Of a stretch of DNA of 6,075 nt, positions 51-6,075 are shown piece after piece. Made by a program: the position numbers and the translations under genes. The first letter of the stretch is position 1. The number at the start of each line of letters is the position of its first letter. The notes beneath the pieces were generated by a model. The model saw only the letters and a list, made by a program, of their open reading frames with translations, searched no databases and was not told where the DNA came from. The stretch comes from Tannerella sp. (GTDB lineage Bacteria; Bacteroidota; Bacteroidia; Bacteroidales; Tannerellaceae), in contig JAITBC010000139.1 of NCBI GenBank assembly GCA_031283785.1, positions 1-6,075 of the forward strand, given 5' to 3'.

Positions 51-755
51 CTACGGGAGTTTTACTTCCACGATTTTACTGTAATTGTAATGACTGCCCG
101 GATTGTCGGCAAACGCTCCGACCCTTACGTAATACGTAGAGCCGGGAACGAGTCCGGTCAAGGTGGCCGAATACGTCTTTGAAATGATTTCGTCGTCGCT
201 GACCGATTTTACCTCTATGTCGGATTTTTTTACAAATGTGTTTTTATCCACATAAGGCGTCTTGCCACACACAAAGGTGATGGTTTGGATTTTAGGTGCA
301 TTTGCCGAACGGGATACCTGCGTAGAGAGCGTGATTTCGCCTCCTGCACCCGGTACAACGTTAACGGACAGCCGTAGATACGGCGTCACCTTGACGTCCA
401 TGTTTTTTGTGCCGGATATATCTGTTTCGATCGGATCAAAAGCGGCAAAAGCGCCTTCGGCTGTAATTCTGTATTTACCCGCAAAGACGGATTTGTTCTC
501 GAAAGAGCCATCCTGTTTCACCCAAAAATCGTACGGCTGGGGACTCCATTCATTCTTGTAAAATTCATAGATTCTGATTCGCGCTCCGTTTGGCGTCTGC
601 GTTGGCATGGCTTCGTTCGTTTCCGAATCGAGTAACCGACCGGTCAGCGTCGCATTCGAAGCATCATAATTATCCAAACTGCATCCTGAAAAGCAGAATA
701 CACACAGGATCATCCACATCGGTACTGTCTTAAAAATTTTAGCTTGTATTTTCAT
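51..755 (-). CDS. DUF3823-like outer-membrane lipoprotein of a SusC/SusD locus
   Basis: This 234-residue protein starts with a lipoprotein signal peptide: charged MKIQAKIFK, a hydrophobic stretch, and lipobox FSGC with Cys25 as the lipidated residue. The mature N-terminus (SLDNYDASNATLTGRLLD), followed by NGARIRIYE at about residues 56-64 and DFWVKQDGSF at about 76-85, matches my memory of DUF3823 proteins. These have an Ig-like or carboxypeptidase-regulatory-like first domain. The second half (about 125-234) ends in a fibronectin-III-like strand pattern, LTGLVPGSTYYVRVGAF. The start lies 12 bases after the susD stop, so the two genes are almost certainly cotranscribed. Family members are typically encoded next to susD and are presumed to be surface-exposed glycan-binding or structural accessories; no catalytic role is implied. 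The family call is fairly firm, the exact ligand unknown. The stop is TAG at 53-51. Confidence 0.8.
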   Translation of the reverse strand: MKIQAKIFKTVPMWMILCVFCFSGCSLDNYDASNATLTGRLLDSETNEAMPTQTPNGARIRIYEFYKNEWSPQPYDFWVKQDGSFENKSVFAGKYRITAEGAFAAFDPIETDISGTKNMDVKVTPYLRLSVNVVPGAGGEITLSTQVSRSANAPKIQTITFVCGKTPYVDKNTFVKKSDIEVKSVSDDEIISKTYSATLTGLVPGSTYYVRVGAFADNPGSHYNYSKIVEVKLP

Positions 756-767
756 CTGACATATAAA

Positions 768-2531
768 TTAAAATCCCGGATTCTGTACCAAAATATCGTT
801 TTGAGCAACGCCCGGAATGGGTTGATAATAATTTTTTTCCAAAAATGTTTTTGCCGAATTGAAAGTATTTGCTCCCTTTTCGAAGATATATTTTCCGGTT
901 TTGTAGTCCAACCAAGGCAACAGAGCCGAGAACGTTGTGTTGTTCATCACCTCCGTTGCAATTCTCCAACGTACCAAATCCCAGTATCTCAAATTTTCGA
1001 AAGCGAGTTCAATCCTTCTTTCATGCCGGATATCCTCCAGCGTAATCGAAGTTTTTTGCAGTATACCTGCACGGGTTCTTATTGCATTCAGTTTCGGAAG
1101 GGCGTCGTCCGGGCGGTTGAGTTCCATCGCAGCTTCAGCATAGTTAAGTAGCGTTTCGCCGTAACGAAATACGAGAAAGTTGGTTGTGGAACGATTTTGG
1201 TCGAGGCGCAGATTAACCGGATCCAGATATTTTTTCAACAGGAAACCGGTACGGGTAGCATCACCCTGTATGGGCATTCCGTCTTTGCCGGCAAGGGAAT
1301 AGGAGGGGTCTTCAGCGAATTTGTCCGAATAGGCAGCGGCAGGTACCTTTACGCCGTCACTGCCGATGATTCCCCTGCGAATAACGACAAAATCACCCTG
1401 CCACGGACAGTTGGGATACAGTATGCTGCCGAAGAATCGGGGATCCTTGCCTTCAAAAATGTCTTCCGGCCGGTCGTAATAAATCGACTGGCCGTCAACG
1501 TCGTTTGTCACCAATATTCCGGGTCGTCCGTCGATATATTCAAAGGCTTCCACCAGTTCCTGTGTGGGGCCGATGCCATCGCCATAACTGACTTTAAACG
1601 ATTCGGGTGCGGTGTAATAGTCAAAACTGTGCCCTTTGTCTGCCGAATAAGCCTTGACAAAGATGGCTTCTTCATGCAGGGTTCTGTCCATGAACAGATT
1701 CTGGAAATTGGCTGCCCGGTCACTCGTATTCCTATCATACAGGCTGTAATTGCCCGAATTGATAATGGCTTCCGAGGCAGCCAGTGAAAGGCTGAAATAG
1801 CCGTTTGCCCTGTCGGCGGGAATCCCGACCAGTCCGTTTAACTGCATTCTGCCGTAGCGGGCAATGGAGCCAGCATACAGCATGGCACGGCTTTTCAGGG
1901 CATACGCGGCATATTTGGTTGCCCGGAACTGTTCGCTATTCGAGAGTTTTTCCGGAAGACCGGCAATGGCTCTGTCCAGATCTTCGGCAATGAAGTTAAA
2001 GGTTTCTTCCTCCGTACTGCGCGGCACTTTCAGGTCACTGATATTGCTGCCGTCATACTTCTGTGTTTCCTTAACCAGTGGAACGCCGCCGTAGCGTTTC
2101 GCCATCACAAAATAGTTGAACGCCCGCAGGAAATACGCTTCGGCCAGATACCTCTCTATCACTGACTGGCTAACGGAGGCATTTACAATTTTCTCGATAA
2201 ATTCATTGATTACTCTTACTTTACTATATTCCCAATTCGCCAGATAAGTGTCTGGAAATGTCGGATTGTAAGGGATTCCCCAGGAATAGGCTCGTAATGA
2301 TTCATCCGTATAATGCGAAAAGAAACCTTCCTGAGTCGTTTGCCATGCATGCGCTTCCATCTGTACATTGTCGTACATGTTAGCCAGATAGGCCTGAATA
2401 GCGCTTTCATTGTTCCACACATCCGCATCGGAAATAATATCCAGTGGTTTCCTGTCCAGAAAATCGTCCGTACAGGCGCTCAACGTCAGGCACAGGCCTG
2501 TTATTGTCACATATAAAAATTTACGTATCAT
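768..2531 (-). CDS. susD: SusD/RagB-family glycan-binding outer-membrane lipoprotein
   Basis: This 587-residue protein is an intact SusD homologue of normal family length. The signal peptide ends in lipobox LSAC with Cys20 lipidated. The acidic residues after it (TDDFLD) resemble the surface-export signal of Bacteroidota lipoproteins. The N-terminal FLDRKPLDIISDADVW is the classic SusD opening. TPR-like helices follow: YLAEAYFLRAFNYF with AKRYGGVPLV (about 130-153), and YAAYALKSRAMLYAG around 210. The C-terminal SusD domain shows FRYGETLLNYAEAAMEL, LNAIRTRAG, RRIELAFENLRYWDLVRW, and a terminal YYQPIPGVAQND block. Such proteins sit over the SusC barrel and help capture oligosaccharides. The start is 12 bases after the susC stop, with a weak AGGA upstream. 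The gene appears undamaged although its partner susC is interrupted, so it would lack a matching channel unless another SusC substitutes. The substrate cannot be read from the sequence. Confidence 0.95.
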   Translation of the reverse strand: MIRKFLYVTITGLCLTLSACTDDFLDRKPLDIISDADVWNNESAIQAYLANMYDNVQMEAHAWQTTQEGFFSHYTDESLRAYSWGIPYNPTFPDTYLANWEYSKVRVINEFIEKIVNASVSQSVIERYLAEAYFLRAFNYFVMAKRYGGVPLVKETQKYDGSNISDLKVPRSTEEETFNFIAEDLDRAIAGLPEKLSNSEQFRATKYAAYALKSRAMLYAGSIARYGRMQLNGLVGIPADRANGYFSLSLAASEAIINSGNYSLYDRNTSDRAANFQNLFMDRTLHEEAIFVKAYSADKGHSFDYYTAPESFKVSYGDGIGPTQELVEAFEYIDGRPGILVTNDVDGQSIYYDRPEDIFEGKDPRFFGSILYPNCPWQGDFVVIRRGIIGSDGVKVPAAAYSDKFAEDPSYSLAGKDGMPIQGDATRTGFLLKKYLDPVNLRLDQNRSTTNFLVFRYGETLLNYAEAAMELNRPDDALPKLNAIRTRAGILQKTSITLEDIRHERRIELAFENLRYWDLVRWRIATEVMNNTTFSALLPWLDYKTGKYIFEKGANTFNSAKTFLEKNYYQPIPGVAQNDILVQNPGF

Positions 2532-2543
2532 GGTCTTTGTCCT

Positions 2544-3515
2544 TTAAAATGTAATATTTACTCCTATGTTCCATATCTTGATTGAAGGGTATCCAAATCC
2601 GGTACTGCTGGCTGCTTCAGGGTCTCCATACGGAAGATTGTCAAAGGTCAGTACATTATTACCGGATACGTATAACCTCAGATTGCTCATGCCGGCTTTG
2701 TAGATCCACTGTTTCGGCAGTGTGTATCCCAACTCGATGTTTTTTACCCTGAAATAATAAGAGTTGAGGTTGTAGAAGGTTGAAGTTCTCGTGTTGTTCA
2801 CTTTTCCCGTAGCATATGTGGAAGGATATTTGCCAGGAATCCATTCCGAATTAGGGTCGAACGGATCTACCCGATGCCATCTGTCCATCAAGGCTTTCAA
2901 GGAAGTGCCGCTGTTGAATAGAGGATATGCTGCCGCATCCCTCATGTAACGGGAATATTGTGTAGCTCCCTGTATCAATACAGAAAAGTCAACCCCCTTC
3001 CAAGAGGCGGTAAGGTCTATGCCATAGTAAATTTCCGGCATATTGCTTCGGCCAATCGGCTGTACATCCAGATCGTTAATGACACCGTCGCCATTCAGAT
3101 CTTCAAACTTCAGGTCACCGGGTAACAACGTTGTATTACCTGCTCCGTCCTGCACTGCCCAATTATTGATATCTTCCTGATTCTGGAATTGTCCGAGGCA
3201 TACATACCCGTATTCAATATTGTTCCACCGGTCGCTCCGATTATTCCTCCAGTACAAGAATGAATTAATGGGTTCGTTCTGTTCGATATATCTGTTTTTG
3301 GAGCGGGTCATCGACATGTTCCCCTTGATGGAATACCGGAAATTCTGCACTTGGTTGTTGTGTCCCAGCGTTAGCTCAAATCCGCGGTAGTCGTCGCTGT
3401 TCAGGTTTTCCTGCGGCAGCGAAGTGCCGAAGGTATTGGGCAACGATTCGGTACGATAAGCAAGCAGCCCGTCGCGTTTACGGTAGAACACGTCCAGCGA
3501 GGCTTCCAGTAATCC
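2544..3515 (-). pseudogene. susC: SusC-like TonB-dependent receptor, C-terminal part (downstream of the insertion)
   Basis: This open frame encodes the last roughly 323 residues of a SusC/RagA-type outer-membrane receptor. It opens with GLLEASLDVFYRKRDGLLA, a barrel strand conserved in SusC proteins. It then carries the loop FEDLNGDGVINDLDVQPIGR followed by MPEIYYGIDLTASWKGVD, a hallmark of the family's C-terminal third. Later come FRVKNIELGYTLP and YVSGNNVLTFDNLPYGDPE, and it ends in NIGVNITF with the terminal aromatic residue typical of outer-membrane barrels. There is no real start: a TAA lies in frame at 3519-3517, one codon before GLLEA, and the only early initiator is a GTG at 3491 that is simply the family's conserved Val before FYR. 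It lacks signal peptide, plug and the first barrel half, so alone it cannot work. It joins in frame to the fragment at 4991-6075 if 3516-4990 is removed. Confidence 0.9.
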
Positions 3516-3620
3516 GTGTTATTTTCAAATGACACTTTGTAAACATTACCAATAATTAAAACAACTGAATAAATTAAATAATTGTGTTCGTTGTGAATTT
3601 TCTTTTATCTTATCCGTGTT
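3512..3620 (+). repeat. Two direct copies of ATCCGTGTT, 100 bases apart
   Basis: ATCCGTGTT occurs at 3512-3520 and again at 3612-3620, with context TAATCCGTGTT versus TTATCCGTGTT. The first copy overlaps the end of susC: its ATCC lies within Leu-Gly codons, and its GTGTT is the first sequence of the insertion. The core ATCCGTG also appears in the opposite orientation near the far end of the insertion (CACGGAT at 4951-4957). Three copies of a 7-mer in 1.5 kb could be chance. They are noted because two of them lie near the edges. Confidence 0.35.
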
Positions 3621-3623
3621 TAA

Positions 3624-3637
3624 AACCGTGAACGGTT
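3624..3637. repeat. Short palindrome AACCGT-GA-ACGGTT
   Basis: Two perfectly complementary 6-base arms, AACCGT at 3624-3629 and ACGGTT at 3632-3637, are separated by GA. The two-base spacer is too small for an RNA hairpin loop, so a dimeric protein-binding site would be the more natural reading. Nothing nearby identifies a regulator, and a palindrome this short can arise by chance. Confidence 0.3.
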
Positions 3638-3708
3638 ACAAAATTTCAAGTAATTGTTTATTTAGGTTGCGTAATATTTCAGTAGAATTTTTGTTTTTTC
3701 CTAATTAT

Positions 3709-3849
3709 TTTTTTAAGGAACAAAAGGAACGCTCTGGTTAAGAATCTATGATTGAAAAGACTCAAATTGGAATCTTTAATCTCCGATCTTAAACAACAAC
3801 GTTCCTCATGTCTCTAACGTCCCTTCTGTCCCTAATGTCCCTTAAAAAA
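3709..3849. repeat. 141-bp imperfect palindrome with terminal inverted repeats (MITE-like or structured element)
   Basis: The ends are inverted repeats: TTTTTTAAGGAAC at 3709-3721 against GTCCCTTAAAAAA at 3837-3849, pairing at 12 of 13 positions, the outer 10 perfect. Further complementary arms nest inside. AGGAACG (3725-3731) pairs with CGTTCCT (3800-3806). TTAAGA plus TC (3738-3743, 3745-3746) pairs with GATCTTAA (3785-3792), leaving A3744 bulged. GATT plus AAAGA (3750-3753, 3756-3760) pairs with TCTTTAATC (3773-3781), leaving a two-base bulge and a 12-base loop at 3761-3772. The right arm holds about 30 extra bases made of 9-bp repeats. The element sits 16 bases beyond the fucosidase stop. 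Its T-run is on the 5' side and its A-run on the 3' side in either direction, so it is not a standard intrinsic terminator. A small non-autonomous repeat or an RNA-stabilising 3' structure are both possible. Confidence 0.6.
3797..3841 (-). repeat. Degenerate 9-bp tandem array, five units (GGGACRTTA-like)
   Basis: Read on the minus strand from 3841, five successive 9-mers are GGGACATTA, GGGACAGAA, GGGACGTTA, GAGACATGA and GGAACGTTG. The first five positions follow GGGAC with at most one change per unit, while the last four vary. Two related 9-mers in the opposite orientation, GGAACAAAA and GGAACGCTC, occupy 3717-3734 on the plus strand, so the array makes up part of both arms of the surrounding palindrome. 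There is no unique spacer between units, which excludes a CRISPR. The array is non-coding and lies just after the fucosidase gene. Confidence 0.6.
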
Positions 3850-3865
3850 CACCGCCAAATTGCTA

Positions 3866-4912
3866 TTACTTCTTTTCTAGTTCTTGGATTTTTTGTCCGA
3901 CTTCTTGTAAAATTTTAACGTCGATATCTCGGATTTTTCCGTTGTAATCGGGACCGACATTTATCGAAAAAATATTTCCGTATTTAACAGCGCCGAGATA
4001 ATCGTCAAAAAGTTTTGTTGCGGGATAAACTAATTTATCGTGTTTCGGCAACGAATAGAACCACATCGCGCCGCCGCTATGAGCCGGCAAAATCGGATAC
4101 GTAAATTCGGCGACTTTCCAATTATGCTTGTTATCTTTGACTTTATTCCAAGGTGTAGAAGAATTGTCATCAAGCGATCCCGGTTTTCCCATTTCTCCGA
4201 GTCTGATGTCGGCAGTCGATTGGTCGCCGTGATTGTATCCGATAAAACAATTCGGCTGAAGTTTTTTACACCATTCGGTTGTTTCATTATGATTTAATCC
4301 TCCAGTTCCGGCGGCGTGGTCGAACCAGATATATTCGATAGGTCCGTAATTTGTCAGTAGTTCTTTGAGTTGAGCTTTTTTCACTTCAGGATTATTCCCG
4401 CCGCAATATACTTTGCCATCGACAGCGCCTTTCCAAGTCCAATCGCCTTCCGAAAAATACAAAGCGAGCTTGATTCCATATTTATCGCACGACTTTTTCA
4501 ACTCTGCGAGAACGTCTTTACCGAGCGGCGCGTTTGTTATTTTGCGTTCGGTCGTTTTGGTGTCCCAGAGACAAAAGCCGTCGTGATGTTTTGTCAGAAA
4601 CAAAATGTAACCCATTTTTGCTTCTTTTGCGGTTTTTGCCCATTGGTCGGTATCGACGTTTGTCGCCGGAAAGAGTTTATCGTAATCTGTCCGAGTCGCG
4701 ACATTTGTCGTCCATTCCTTACCGGAGAACGTGCTAAACGACCAACAGATAAACATTCCCCATCGCAAGTTTTTAAGCTCTTGCACTCGTTTTTCAGAAA
4801 CAACATTTGGAGTTTGTTCCGTTGAAATTTTAGGTTCGTCTGCCTTTGAGATATTACAAGCAATAATACCGCAAAAGACAAAAAAACAAATTTGTCTAAA
4901 ACATTTTTTCAT
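3866..4912 (-). CDS. Secreted GH29-type alpha-L-fucosidase-like protein
   Basis: This 348-residue protein would hydrolyse terminal alpha-L-fucose from glycans by the retaining mechanism of family GH29. The N-terminus is a signal peptide (MKKCFRQICFFVFCGIIAC). IIAC at 16-19 fits a lipobox, and ISKA-DE just after could be a signal peptidase I site, so it is either a lipoprotein or soluble periplasmic/secreted. Catalytic-domain motifs follow in order: LRWGMFICWSFSTFSG (49-64), LFLTKHHDGFCLWD (104-117) with the GH29 His-His-Asp-Gly, KYGIKLALYFSEGDW (144-158), and IEYIWFDHAAG (192-202), where Asp198 is the expected nucleophile. E269 in VAEFTYP, ahead of GGAMWFYSLPKHD, is a candidate acid/base by position only. 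It is shorter than many GH29 enzymes and has no C-terminal beta-sandwich. The sequence style reminds me of Planctomycetota/Verrucomicrobiota homologues more than of usual Bacteroides ones. No Shine-Dalgarno is visible before the ATG. It is the only gene inside the block that splits susC. Confidence 0.85.
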   Translation of the reverse strand: MKKCFRQICFFVFCGIIACNISKADEPKISTEQTPNVVSEKRVQELKNLRWGMFICWSFSTFSGKEWTTNVATRTDYDKLFPATNVDTDQWAKTAKEAKMGYILFLTKHHDGFCLWDTKTTERKITNAPLGKDVLAELKKSCDKYGIKLALYFSEGDWTWKGAVDGKVYCGGNNPEVKKAQLKELLTNYGPIEYIWFDHAAGTGGLNHNETTEWCKKLQPNCFIGYNHGDQSTADIRLGEMGKPGSLDDNSSTPWNKVKDNKHNWKVAEFTYPILPAHSGGAMWFYSLPKHDKLVYPATKLFDDYLGAVKYGNIFSINVGPDYNGKIRDIDVKILQEVGQKIQELEKK

Positions 4913-4940
4913 CGTTTTGATTTTGGTTAGTTGTTAATTT

Positions 4941-4971
4941 TTTATACTCGCACGGATGCGGTGTATTTCAA
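4941..4971 (-). promoter_or_regulatory. Possible sigma-70-type promoter for the fucosidase gene
   Basis: On the minus strand TTGAAA (complement of 4966-4971) and TATAAA (complement of 4941-4946) resemble -35 and -10 boxes, with a 19-base spacer that is slightly long. Transcription would begin near 4934, giving a leader of about 20 bases before the ATG at 4912. Bacteroidota housekeeping promoters normally use TTTG and TAnnTTTG boxes, which I do not see here. If real, it is a foreign-style promoter that may work poorly in this host. AT-rich DNA produces such matches readily. Confidence 0.3.
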
Positions 4972-4990
4972 AATAATCAAACAAACTACG

Positions 4991-6075
4991 CCTTTTGTAG
5001 GCGGCATCTATTCCTCCGTTGAATATCTCAGATGTAAACCAGGTGAATTGTTCATTGGGCAACCCTTTGGAAACAACGCTTTTGACTACGTTCGATCCGA
5101 ATATGTAGCTGGCACTTCCCGGATAGTTGTAGCCGGTGAGATACTGGAAAGCAGCCACACGGTCATCTCCTGTCTTTCCATATGAAAGCCGCAATTTCAA
5201 GTTACTAAGTATATGATGGCTGTCTTTCAGAAATGATTCCTCCGAAATTCGCCAGGCCATTTCTGCACCGGGAAAGAATCCCCAGCGGTTATTCTGATAG
5301 AATTTGGCGGAACCGTCTTCACGAAACGTCAGGTTTATCATATATTTACCCAAATAATCGTAATTCAGCCTACCGATAAATGACACGTTAGCCGTTTCCG
5401 TTTGAGATCCGGCGTTCGTCTTATTGAGATCCCGACCCGCATTGATCTGATCCAAGGCATCAATGTCAAACTGCCGATAAGCGCTCAGGAAATCCGTCAG
5501 GTCTTCTCGCTGTTCGTATGCAACGAAGGCGGAAACGGTATGTTTCTGTGCAAATATCCGGTTATAATCCAGTCTAAATTGCAGAAAATTCTGTTCGCCG
5601 ATGTCATCTCTCCGCGTTAATGCCGAAGGTGAGTTTCCGGTGTAGGTAATGTTATACGTATCCGTCGTCCGGTCGTATGAATACAAATGATATTCCTTGC
5701 TGAAATCCTTAGTTTCCTTCAGGTTACCCAGATAACTAAACAACAACTTGGCTGACAGGCCTTTTACAAACGGCATATCGTATTTAAGCGAAAATTGTCC
5801 GTTGAATAATTTATACTTTTCCTTGTTATACCCGGTCAGTTCAGGATAAAGACTAATGGCGTTGTTTGAGCCGAAAGTTGTTCGCTGGAAATACGCAAGA
5901 TTGTCATCGTTAGCCCATGGAGATTAGATGGGTAATACCTGTAATACGTTTCCGACACCTGCCCTTATTACATTCCTGTTTTCAATCCGTCCGCTTAACT
6001 GAACTTCCGCTGTCAAATACCGGGCTATTTTGGCAGAAATGTTGGAACGAATGTTGTACCTTTCGAATCCAGCAT
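4991..6075 (-). pseudogene. susC: SusC-like TonB-dependent receptor, middle part (upstream of the insertion), with a nonsense codon
   Basis: This is the part of the SusC receptor upstream of the insertion. It enters from beyond 6075, so signal peptide, carboxypeptidase-like domain and plug are not seen. Translation from the window edge (AGFERYNIRSNISAKIARY...) runs in one frame through early barrel strands. A TAA at 5926-5924 interrupts it between VLPI and SPWANDD; homology goes on in the same frame on the other side (FQRTTFGSNN, YDMPFVKGLSAKLLFSY). Conserved SusC segments follow: HTVSAFVAYEQRED, GRLNYDYLGKYMINLTFREDGSAKF, RWGFFPGAEMAWRISEESF, LKLRLSYGKTGDD, and QFTWFTSEIFNGGIDAAYKR at the insertion edge. 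Beyond 4991 the frame runs into the insert and adds about 18 unrelated residues before a TAA at 4936-4934. An ATG at 5776 begins the open part but lies mid-barrel and is not a real start. With 2544-3515 this accounts for about 680 residues of a protein usually near 1000-1100. Confidence 0.9.
5924..5926 (-). other. In-frame nonsense codon (TAA) inside the SusC barrel
   Basis: The minus-strand codons read CCC ATC TAA TCT CCA TGG GCT AAC, that is P-I-stop-S-P-W-A-N. SusC-like sequence lies on both sides in the same frame, so this is a single-codon change rather than a frameshift. Related receptors have a P-x-x-SPYAN-like stretch here, and a Leu codon TTA or a Ser codon TCA would each become TAA by one substitution. 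A base-calling error is the main alternative. Confidence 0.75.

Follow-up and report, generated by a model that had tools for sequence, protein, structure and literature searches.

A 1475-bp block carrying a GH29 fucosidase gene within a Tannerellaceae-like susC gene, and how it may have arrived there

The interrupted operon and the contents of the block

The window, by which we mean the whole stretch of 6,075 nucleotides analysed here, carries on its minus strand a susC gene that lacks its beginning, followed by susD and a gene for a DUF3823 protein. The susC 5′ part runs over 4993–6075 (−), as far as the contig reaches, and matches positions 425–668 of TIGR04056 as well as relatives P0121–P0139; the 3′ part (2544–3517, −) matches positions 680–981 of the same profile. 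Membership in the SusC/RagA family rests on these two pieces, each of which stays below the whole-protein cut-off of TIGR04056 because the gene is split. The susD gene lies at 768–2531 (−; PF07980 and PF14322; 86% to P0242), and the DUF3823 gene at 51–755 (−; PF12866 and PF18003) belongs to the susC–susD operon. In this gene order the window resembles the SusC/SusD uptake operons of Bacteroidales, and compared with the intact operon of locus L107, whose frames after susC are of matching lengths, it stays aligned across susD and almost the whole DUF3823 gene. Unlike the usual operons of this kind, its susC gene is interrupted and also contains a nonsense codon, an in-frame TAA at 5924–5926 (−) in the 5′ part, at a position occupied by F, Y, L or T in close relatives; either a decaying gene has taken a second lesion there, or the consensus is wrong. 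We note in passing that the intact operon of L107, from genome G021, adjoins a frame at 290–3628 (−) for a protein of 1113 aa that combines an FGE-sulfatase domain with a "hydrazine synthase alpha middle domain", which is odd for the lineage.

The block between the two parts of susC begins, in the direction of transcription, with an 80-bp leader (4913–4992, −; GC 0.34), which gives only short matches in the loci compared. It is followed by an intact gene for a GH29 alpha-L-fucosidase of 348 aa (3866–4912, −). PF01120 covers residues 30–340 of the predicted enzyme (E 5.7e-38; 131.7 bits, the cut-off being 25.2), GH29 proteins in the PDB are matched by sequence as well as by fold, and in a fold search with a predicted model (pLDDT 71) GH29 enzymes head the 50 PDB matches listed, with a best E of 4e-21. 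W196 and D198 of a W-F-D motif, whose Asp we take to be the nucleophile, are invariant in 19 sequences. Having the family profile, the fold and the invariant W-x-D motif, and no unusual feature, the enzyme is by these marks an ordinary GH29 fucosidase; a signal-peptide-like stretch at its N-terminus, recognised by eye, suggests that it is probably secreted. Apart from the fucosidase the block has no long reading frame, every further listed frame of at least 50 aa overlapping either that gene or the leader, and intergenic sequence flanks this complete gene on both sides, with no partial neighbour gene recognised there. The first-pass annotation, made from the letters alone, had described one cargo gene pointing in the direction of the operon, accompanied by no transposase or integrase and followed by a structured repeat tail. 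This description holds: the fucosidase lies on the minus strand like the sus genes, no recombination gene was recognised in a scan of the frames other than the overlapping ones of at least 50 aa, and the repeat tail is real.

That tail is an AT-rich stretch of 348 bp (3518–3865, −; GC 0.30), in which no gene was recognised. It contains a stem-loop (3709–3849, −) formed by a 9-bp AGGGACNNN array at about 3798–3849 and an inverted partner at 3709–3730, a region that folds better than 200 of 200 dinucleotide shuffles (z −3.1). We suggest that the repeat tail, rather than being the end of a transposon, would be a stem-loop between genes that may serve as a terminator. When the whole tail was compared with 123 genomes of the host family, at most about five candidates being scored per genome, 122 gave a match at E up to 10, the best of which (E 2.9e-4 over 46 bases) we take as chance. 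The array pattern was considered as a phylum marker and is a weak one, being present in 5/294 Planctomycetota genomes (136 and 100 matches in two of them, with overlaps counted separately, and one in each of the other three) and in 4/123 family genomes, with one or two matches each. The array-dense Planctomycetota genomes are G273 and G364 (loci L140, L138 and L147), where the repeat is a 9-bp-spaced AGGGAC array, which in G273 forms inverted pairs on three of four listed contigs; 74 IMG/VR stretches also hold such an array.

The edges of the block and the empty susC site

Uninterrupted susC alleles were sought among related genomes and aligned, and the seven that were examined (L107, L108, L091, L109, L110, L111 and L112) fix both edges of the block. 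They come from one family search and five genomes, namely G021, G097, G101 (three alleles), G120 and G105. Against them the inserted block spans 3518–4992 (−), 1475 bp in all, with both edges shifted by two bases from the 3516–4990 of the first-pass annotation; its removal restores the susC frame. With cuts at 3517/3518 and 4992/4993 the minus strand is rejoined as TACAAAA/ACGGATTACTGG, that is, TAC AAA AAC GGA TTA CTG GAA or Y-K-N-G-L-L-E, and the protein predicted after removal of the block reads ...GIDAAYKNGLLEASLD. The earlier proposal that excision rejoins GIDAAYKR to GLLEASLD is right as to frame, which is also kept at 3516–4990, and slightly wrong in its K-R-G join: at the place of R the protein alignment has N in 18/19 SusC relatives and D in the remaining one (P0121–P0139, out of 120 listed), and all seven intact DNA alleles have the codon AAC followed by GG. 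Its companion claim, that no susC residue is missing after excision, is borne out by the seven alleles and by the blastn edges once the cuts are moved over by two bases.

With the whole window as query, the blastn alignment to L109 places minus-strand base 1083 on base 1912 and minus-strand base 2559 on base 1913, and that to L107 is made up of local alignments that break off at 1081/6294 and begin again at 2559/6297, with two bases left over on either side. No base is common to the end of the left flank and the end of the block, or to the start of the right flank and the start of the block; the cut point is therefore unique and nothing is duplicated, in agreement with the initial observation that a target-site duplication is lacking, the number of repeated bases being zero. 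The alignments show the insertion point to lie between two adjacent bases, with no susC base lost or duplicated. The left junction itself is spanned by a CGCCT/AGGCG hairpin at 4989–5003; when folded as DNA, the surrounding 121 bases outdo 198 of 200 shuffles, which may be chance.

It had also been foreseen that the two SusC pieces might come from different receptors, or that susC sequence might be missing between them. Protein alignment, blastn and the seven alleles reveal neither, and an origin in different receptors is ruled out by the same nearest relative, the matching blastn alignments and the equal constraint of the halves; the two parts are thus shown to belong to one receptor. The joined SusC is most closely related to P0121, which is identical in 270/311 and 290/323 residues of the two halves. 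Measured against L109, the proportions of nonsynonymous and synonymous differences are 0.066 and 0.607 in the 5′ half and 0.051 and 0.581 in the 3′ half, next to 0.089 and 0.719 (5′) and 0.046 and 0.529 (3′) for the intact pair L107–L109, and over all seven alleles both halves remain within the range of intact pairs. Because these proportions resemble those of intact pairs, the susC gene would have been under ordinary selection until recently, and the break looks recent. Reading through the left junction, SusC stops after 19 block-derived residues, and this receptor copy is therefore broken; the fucosidase, by contrast, has an uninterrupted frame preceded by a leader of its own. As a side observation, contigs C410, C411 and C51 of G101 hold three close susC paralogues, or strain variants, in a single genome.

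Foreignness and donor of the fucosidase

The codon usage of the fucosidase differs from that of the operon. Leucine is encoded by CTG in 2/25 cases in the fucosidase and in 50/107 in susC plus susD, GC3 is 0.41 as against 0.50–0.55 in the sus genes, and composition shifts at the block edges. The nearest relative besides the protein itself, among the 120 listed of 3591 database matches, is P0002, which is 85% identical over its whole length, with the signal region counted in, and is encoded on a contig of 4317 bases in a MAG labelled Planctomycetaceae. In a tree of 48 rows P0002 and the block fucosidase are sisters with 100/100 support, and the names in the larger clade around them are a mixture of Planctomycetaceae, Tannerella, Tannerellaceae and Prevotellaceae. 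Within the host-family search, fucosidase relatives occur in 13/123 genomes, seven of them at 71–81% identity.

Whether the donor was a Planctomycete or another member of the Bacteroidales is not settled, the sequence comparisons pointing both ways. The near-identical signal region of P0002 and its Planctomycetaceae label speak against a Bacteroidales donor, as does a codon choice unlike that of the host operon; the label that a MAG gives to a short contig can be wrong, however, and the tree clade around the pair carries names from more than one phylum. The host family itself supplies fucosidases of 81% (G103) and 79% (G101) identity, whereas no close Planctomycetota source genome was found in overlapping sets in which 3/294, 2/392, 0/2, 0/4, 1/9 and 18/397 genomes matched at the thresholds of each set, the best identity being 71%. 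With whole open frames measured, and L131 and L132 left out, GC3 is 0.73–0.87 in three Planctomycetota fucosidase loci and 0.47–0.68 in seven family loci, so that the former lie further than the latter from the 0.41 of the block. That the donor was another Bacteroidales strain and not a Planctomycete, a reading which overlaps with the explanation we favour below, strikes us as a possible, if rather unlikely, course of events.

MAGs named Tannerella or Tannerellaceae contain several of the SusC and SusD relatives, and one fucosidase locus, among the best 80 of 594 matching stretches, derives from Tannerella isolate Pmx449_bin3, presumably a termite-gut style of name. Planctomycetes, including Pirellulaceae, live in termite guts according to one published account (PMC7024585).

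How the block may have come to lie in susC

We favour, with a probability of roughly 0.52, a recent physical insertion of foreign DNA of 1475 bp into a Tannerellaceae-like susC gene, by non-homologous capture and in one strain. A foreign piece comprising a complete fucosidase gene, its leader and the downstream stem-loop would have been captured as a fragment at a DNA break, and its recent insertion into susC would have broken this copy of the receptor while leaving the fucosidase frame intact. Non-homologous capture is proposed because, judged from the target side, there is no target duplication, and because no recombination gene was recognised; capture of a fragment would be the simplest physical route. 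Against this reading, loss-free blunt capture is rare. The likeness to illegitimate recombination lies in the foreign-looking gene, the lack of a target duplication and the lack of a recognised recombination gene; the difference, again from the target side, is that within the window nothing of the susC target is lost. In the homology-facilitated form of illegitimate recombination, one end recombines by homology (PMC3240628). Among the titles and abstract openings of the literature searched, we found no description of a fucosidase block inserted in susC.

The first-pass annotation held that the insertion is real and a misassembly unlikely. The seven alleles uphold a clean insertion into a single susC gene; its physical nature is likely and, on a single contig, unproven. 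The alternative is that a foreign piece of 1475 bp was joined into the susC contig by an assembly or library error. Consistent with such a chimera, the clusters of the fucosidase and of SusD each amount to a single protein from a single contig, whose 6075 bases equal the window's length, so that the window appears to be one complete contig, and no second copy of the insertion was found; the changes of composition at the edges, the other-phylum label of the block's nearest relative and the in-frame TAA at 5924–5926, which hints at an imperfect consensus, agree with it too, and shared words may have caused a misjoin. A chimera would, however, require two wrong joins at neighbouring bases of a single gene, and since independent errors would have to meet so exactly they are unlikely, although this is an argument and not a computation. 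We infer that the insertion is physical and not assembly-made, and consider an artefact improbable without being negligible. If the insertion is physical, it offers a fresh acquisition of a whole carbohydrate-enzyme gene, with both edges known to single-base precision and the empty allele present in seven relatives, and hence a clear view of gene entry into polysaccharide loci where no mobile element was recognised; if it is an artefact, it is a warning that a chimera can restore a reading frame exactly.

A mobile element has also to be weighed. A DDE transposon or insertion sequence, non-autonomous forms included, would be expected to leave a target-site duplication, and with zero repeated bases at the edges a target-duplicating transposon is incompatible with the block. 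An element moved without duplication, by a recombinase supplied in trans, would escape this objection. Elements of the Tn916 and CTnDOT type have inverted ends that adjoin a short coupling sequence of 5–7 bp, which travels with the element; for coupling lengths of 0–8, imperfect inverted ends of the block are no better than those of shuffles (p 0.16–0.94). According to PMC10214605 and PMC5871717, insertion without duplication is possible for Tn916-like, CTnDOT and strand-biased circularizing elements, so that the target bases are kept once, as they are around the block. Tn916-like and CTnDOT elements carry integrase genes and defined ends, and the block shows neither.

The proposal of a non-autonomous single-gene element, placed in trans by, for example, a Tn916/CTnDOT-type tyrosine recombinase, thus draws on the single retention of the target bases, on one complete gene with intergenic sequence to either side and no recognised partial neighbour, and on an imperfect inverted match, TTATTTT[G/C]AAAT(G)ACAC, near both block ends. 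That match is weak (p 0.03 by mononucleotide shuffles, and 0.01 to 0.08, depending on end length, by dinucleotide shuffles), one of its arms lies 16 bases inside the end, and the inverted-repeat word has no exact match in 227 loci. Two 18-base end words occur in 8 IMG/VR stretches each, on different contigs. The suggestion, made at the outset, that copies of the block might be found at other sites was followed up for the tail, and none was recognised in the 123 related genomes. With chance-level tail matches, weak terminal inverted repeats and end words on different contigs, the idea of a non-autonomous cargo element is left unsupported, and, given the poor showing of the coupling-model ends, we regard movement in trans as doubtful. 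Slighter still is the chance we give to the block being an integrase-free single-gene cassette, swapped among gut bacteria of different phyla and placed by a recombinase acting in trans with little or no need of homology and no target duplication.

Other vehicles were considered and set aside. The window gave no Rfam match at gathering score, and so no sign of a group I or II intron or other known RNA, and no tRNA. Integron gene cassettes are bounded by GTTRRRY, and the junction letters, read by eye, do not have this boundary on both sides. Of 107 candidate stretches none was confirmed as a viral contig that encodes the fucosidase, and a plasmid origin was rejected, all of the 297 plasmid records that match the fucosidase protein doing so below 60% identity. 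At the DNA level, only short pieces match 39 plasmid records, 30 of Rhizobium and one of Phocaeicola within the enzyme gene and 8 of Acinetobacter over 27 bases, and a short piece matches one phage record.
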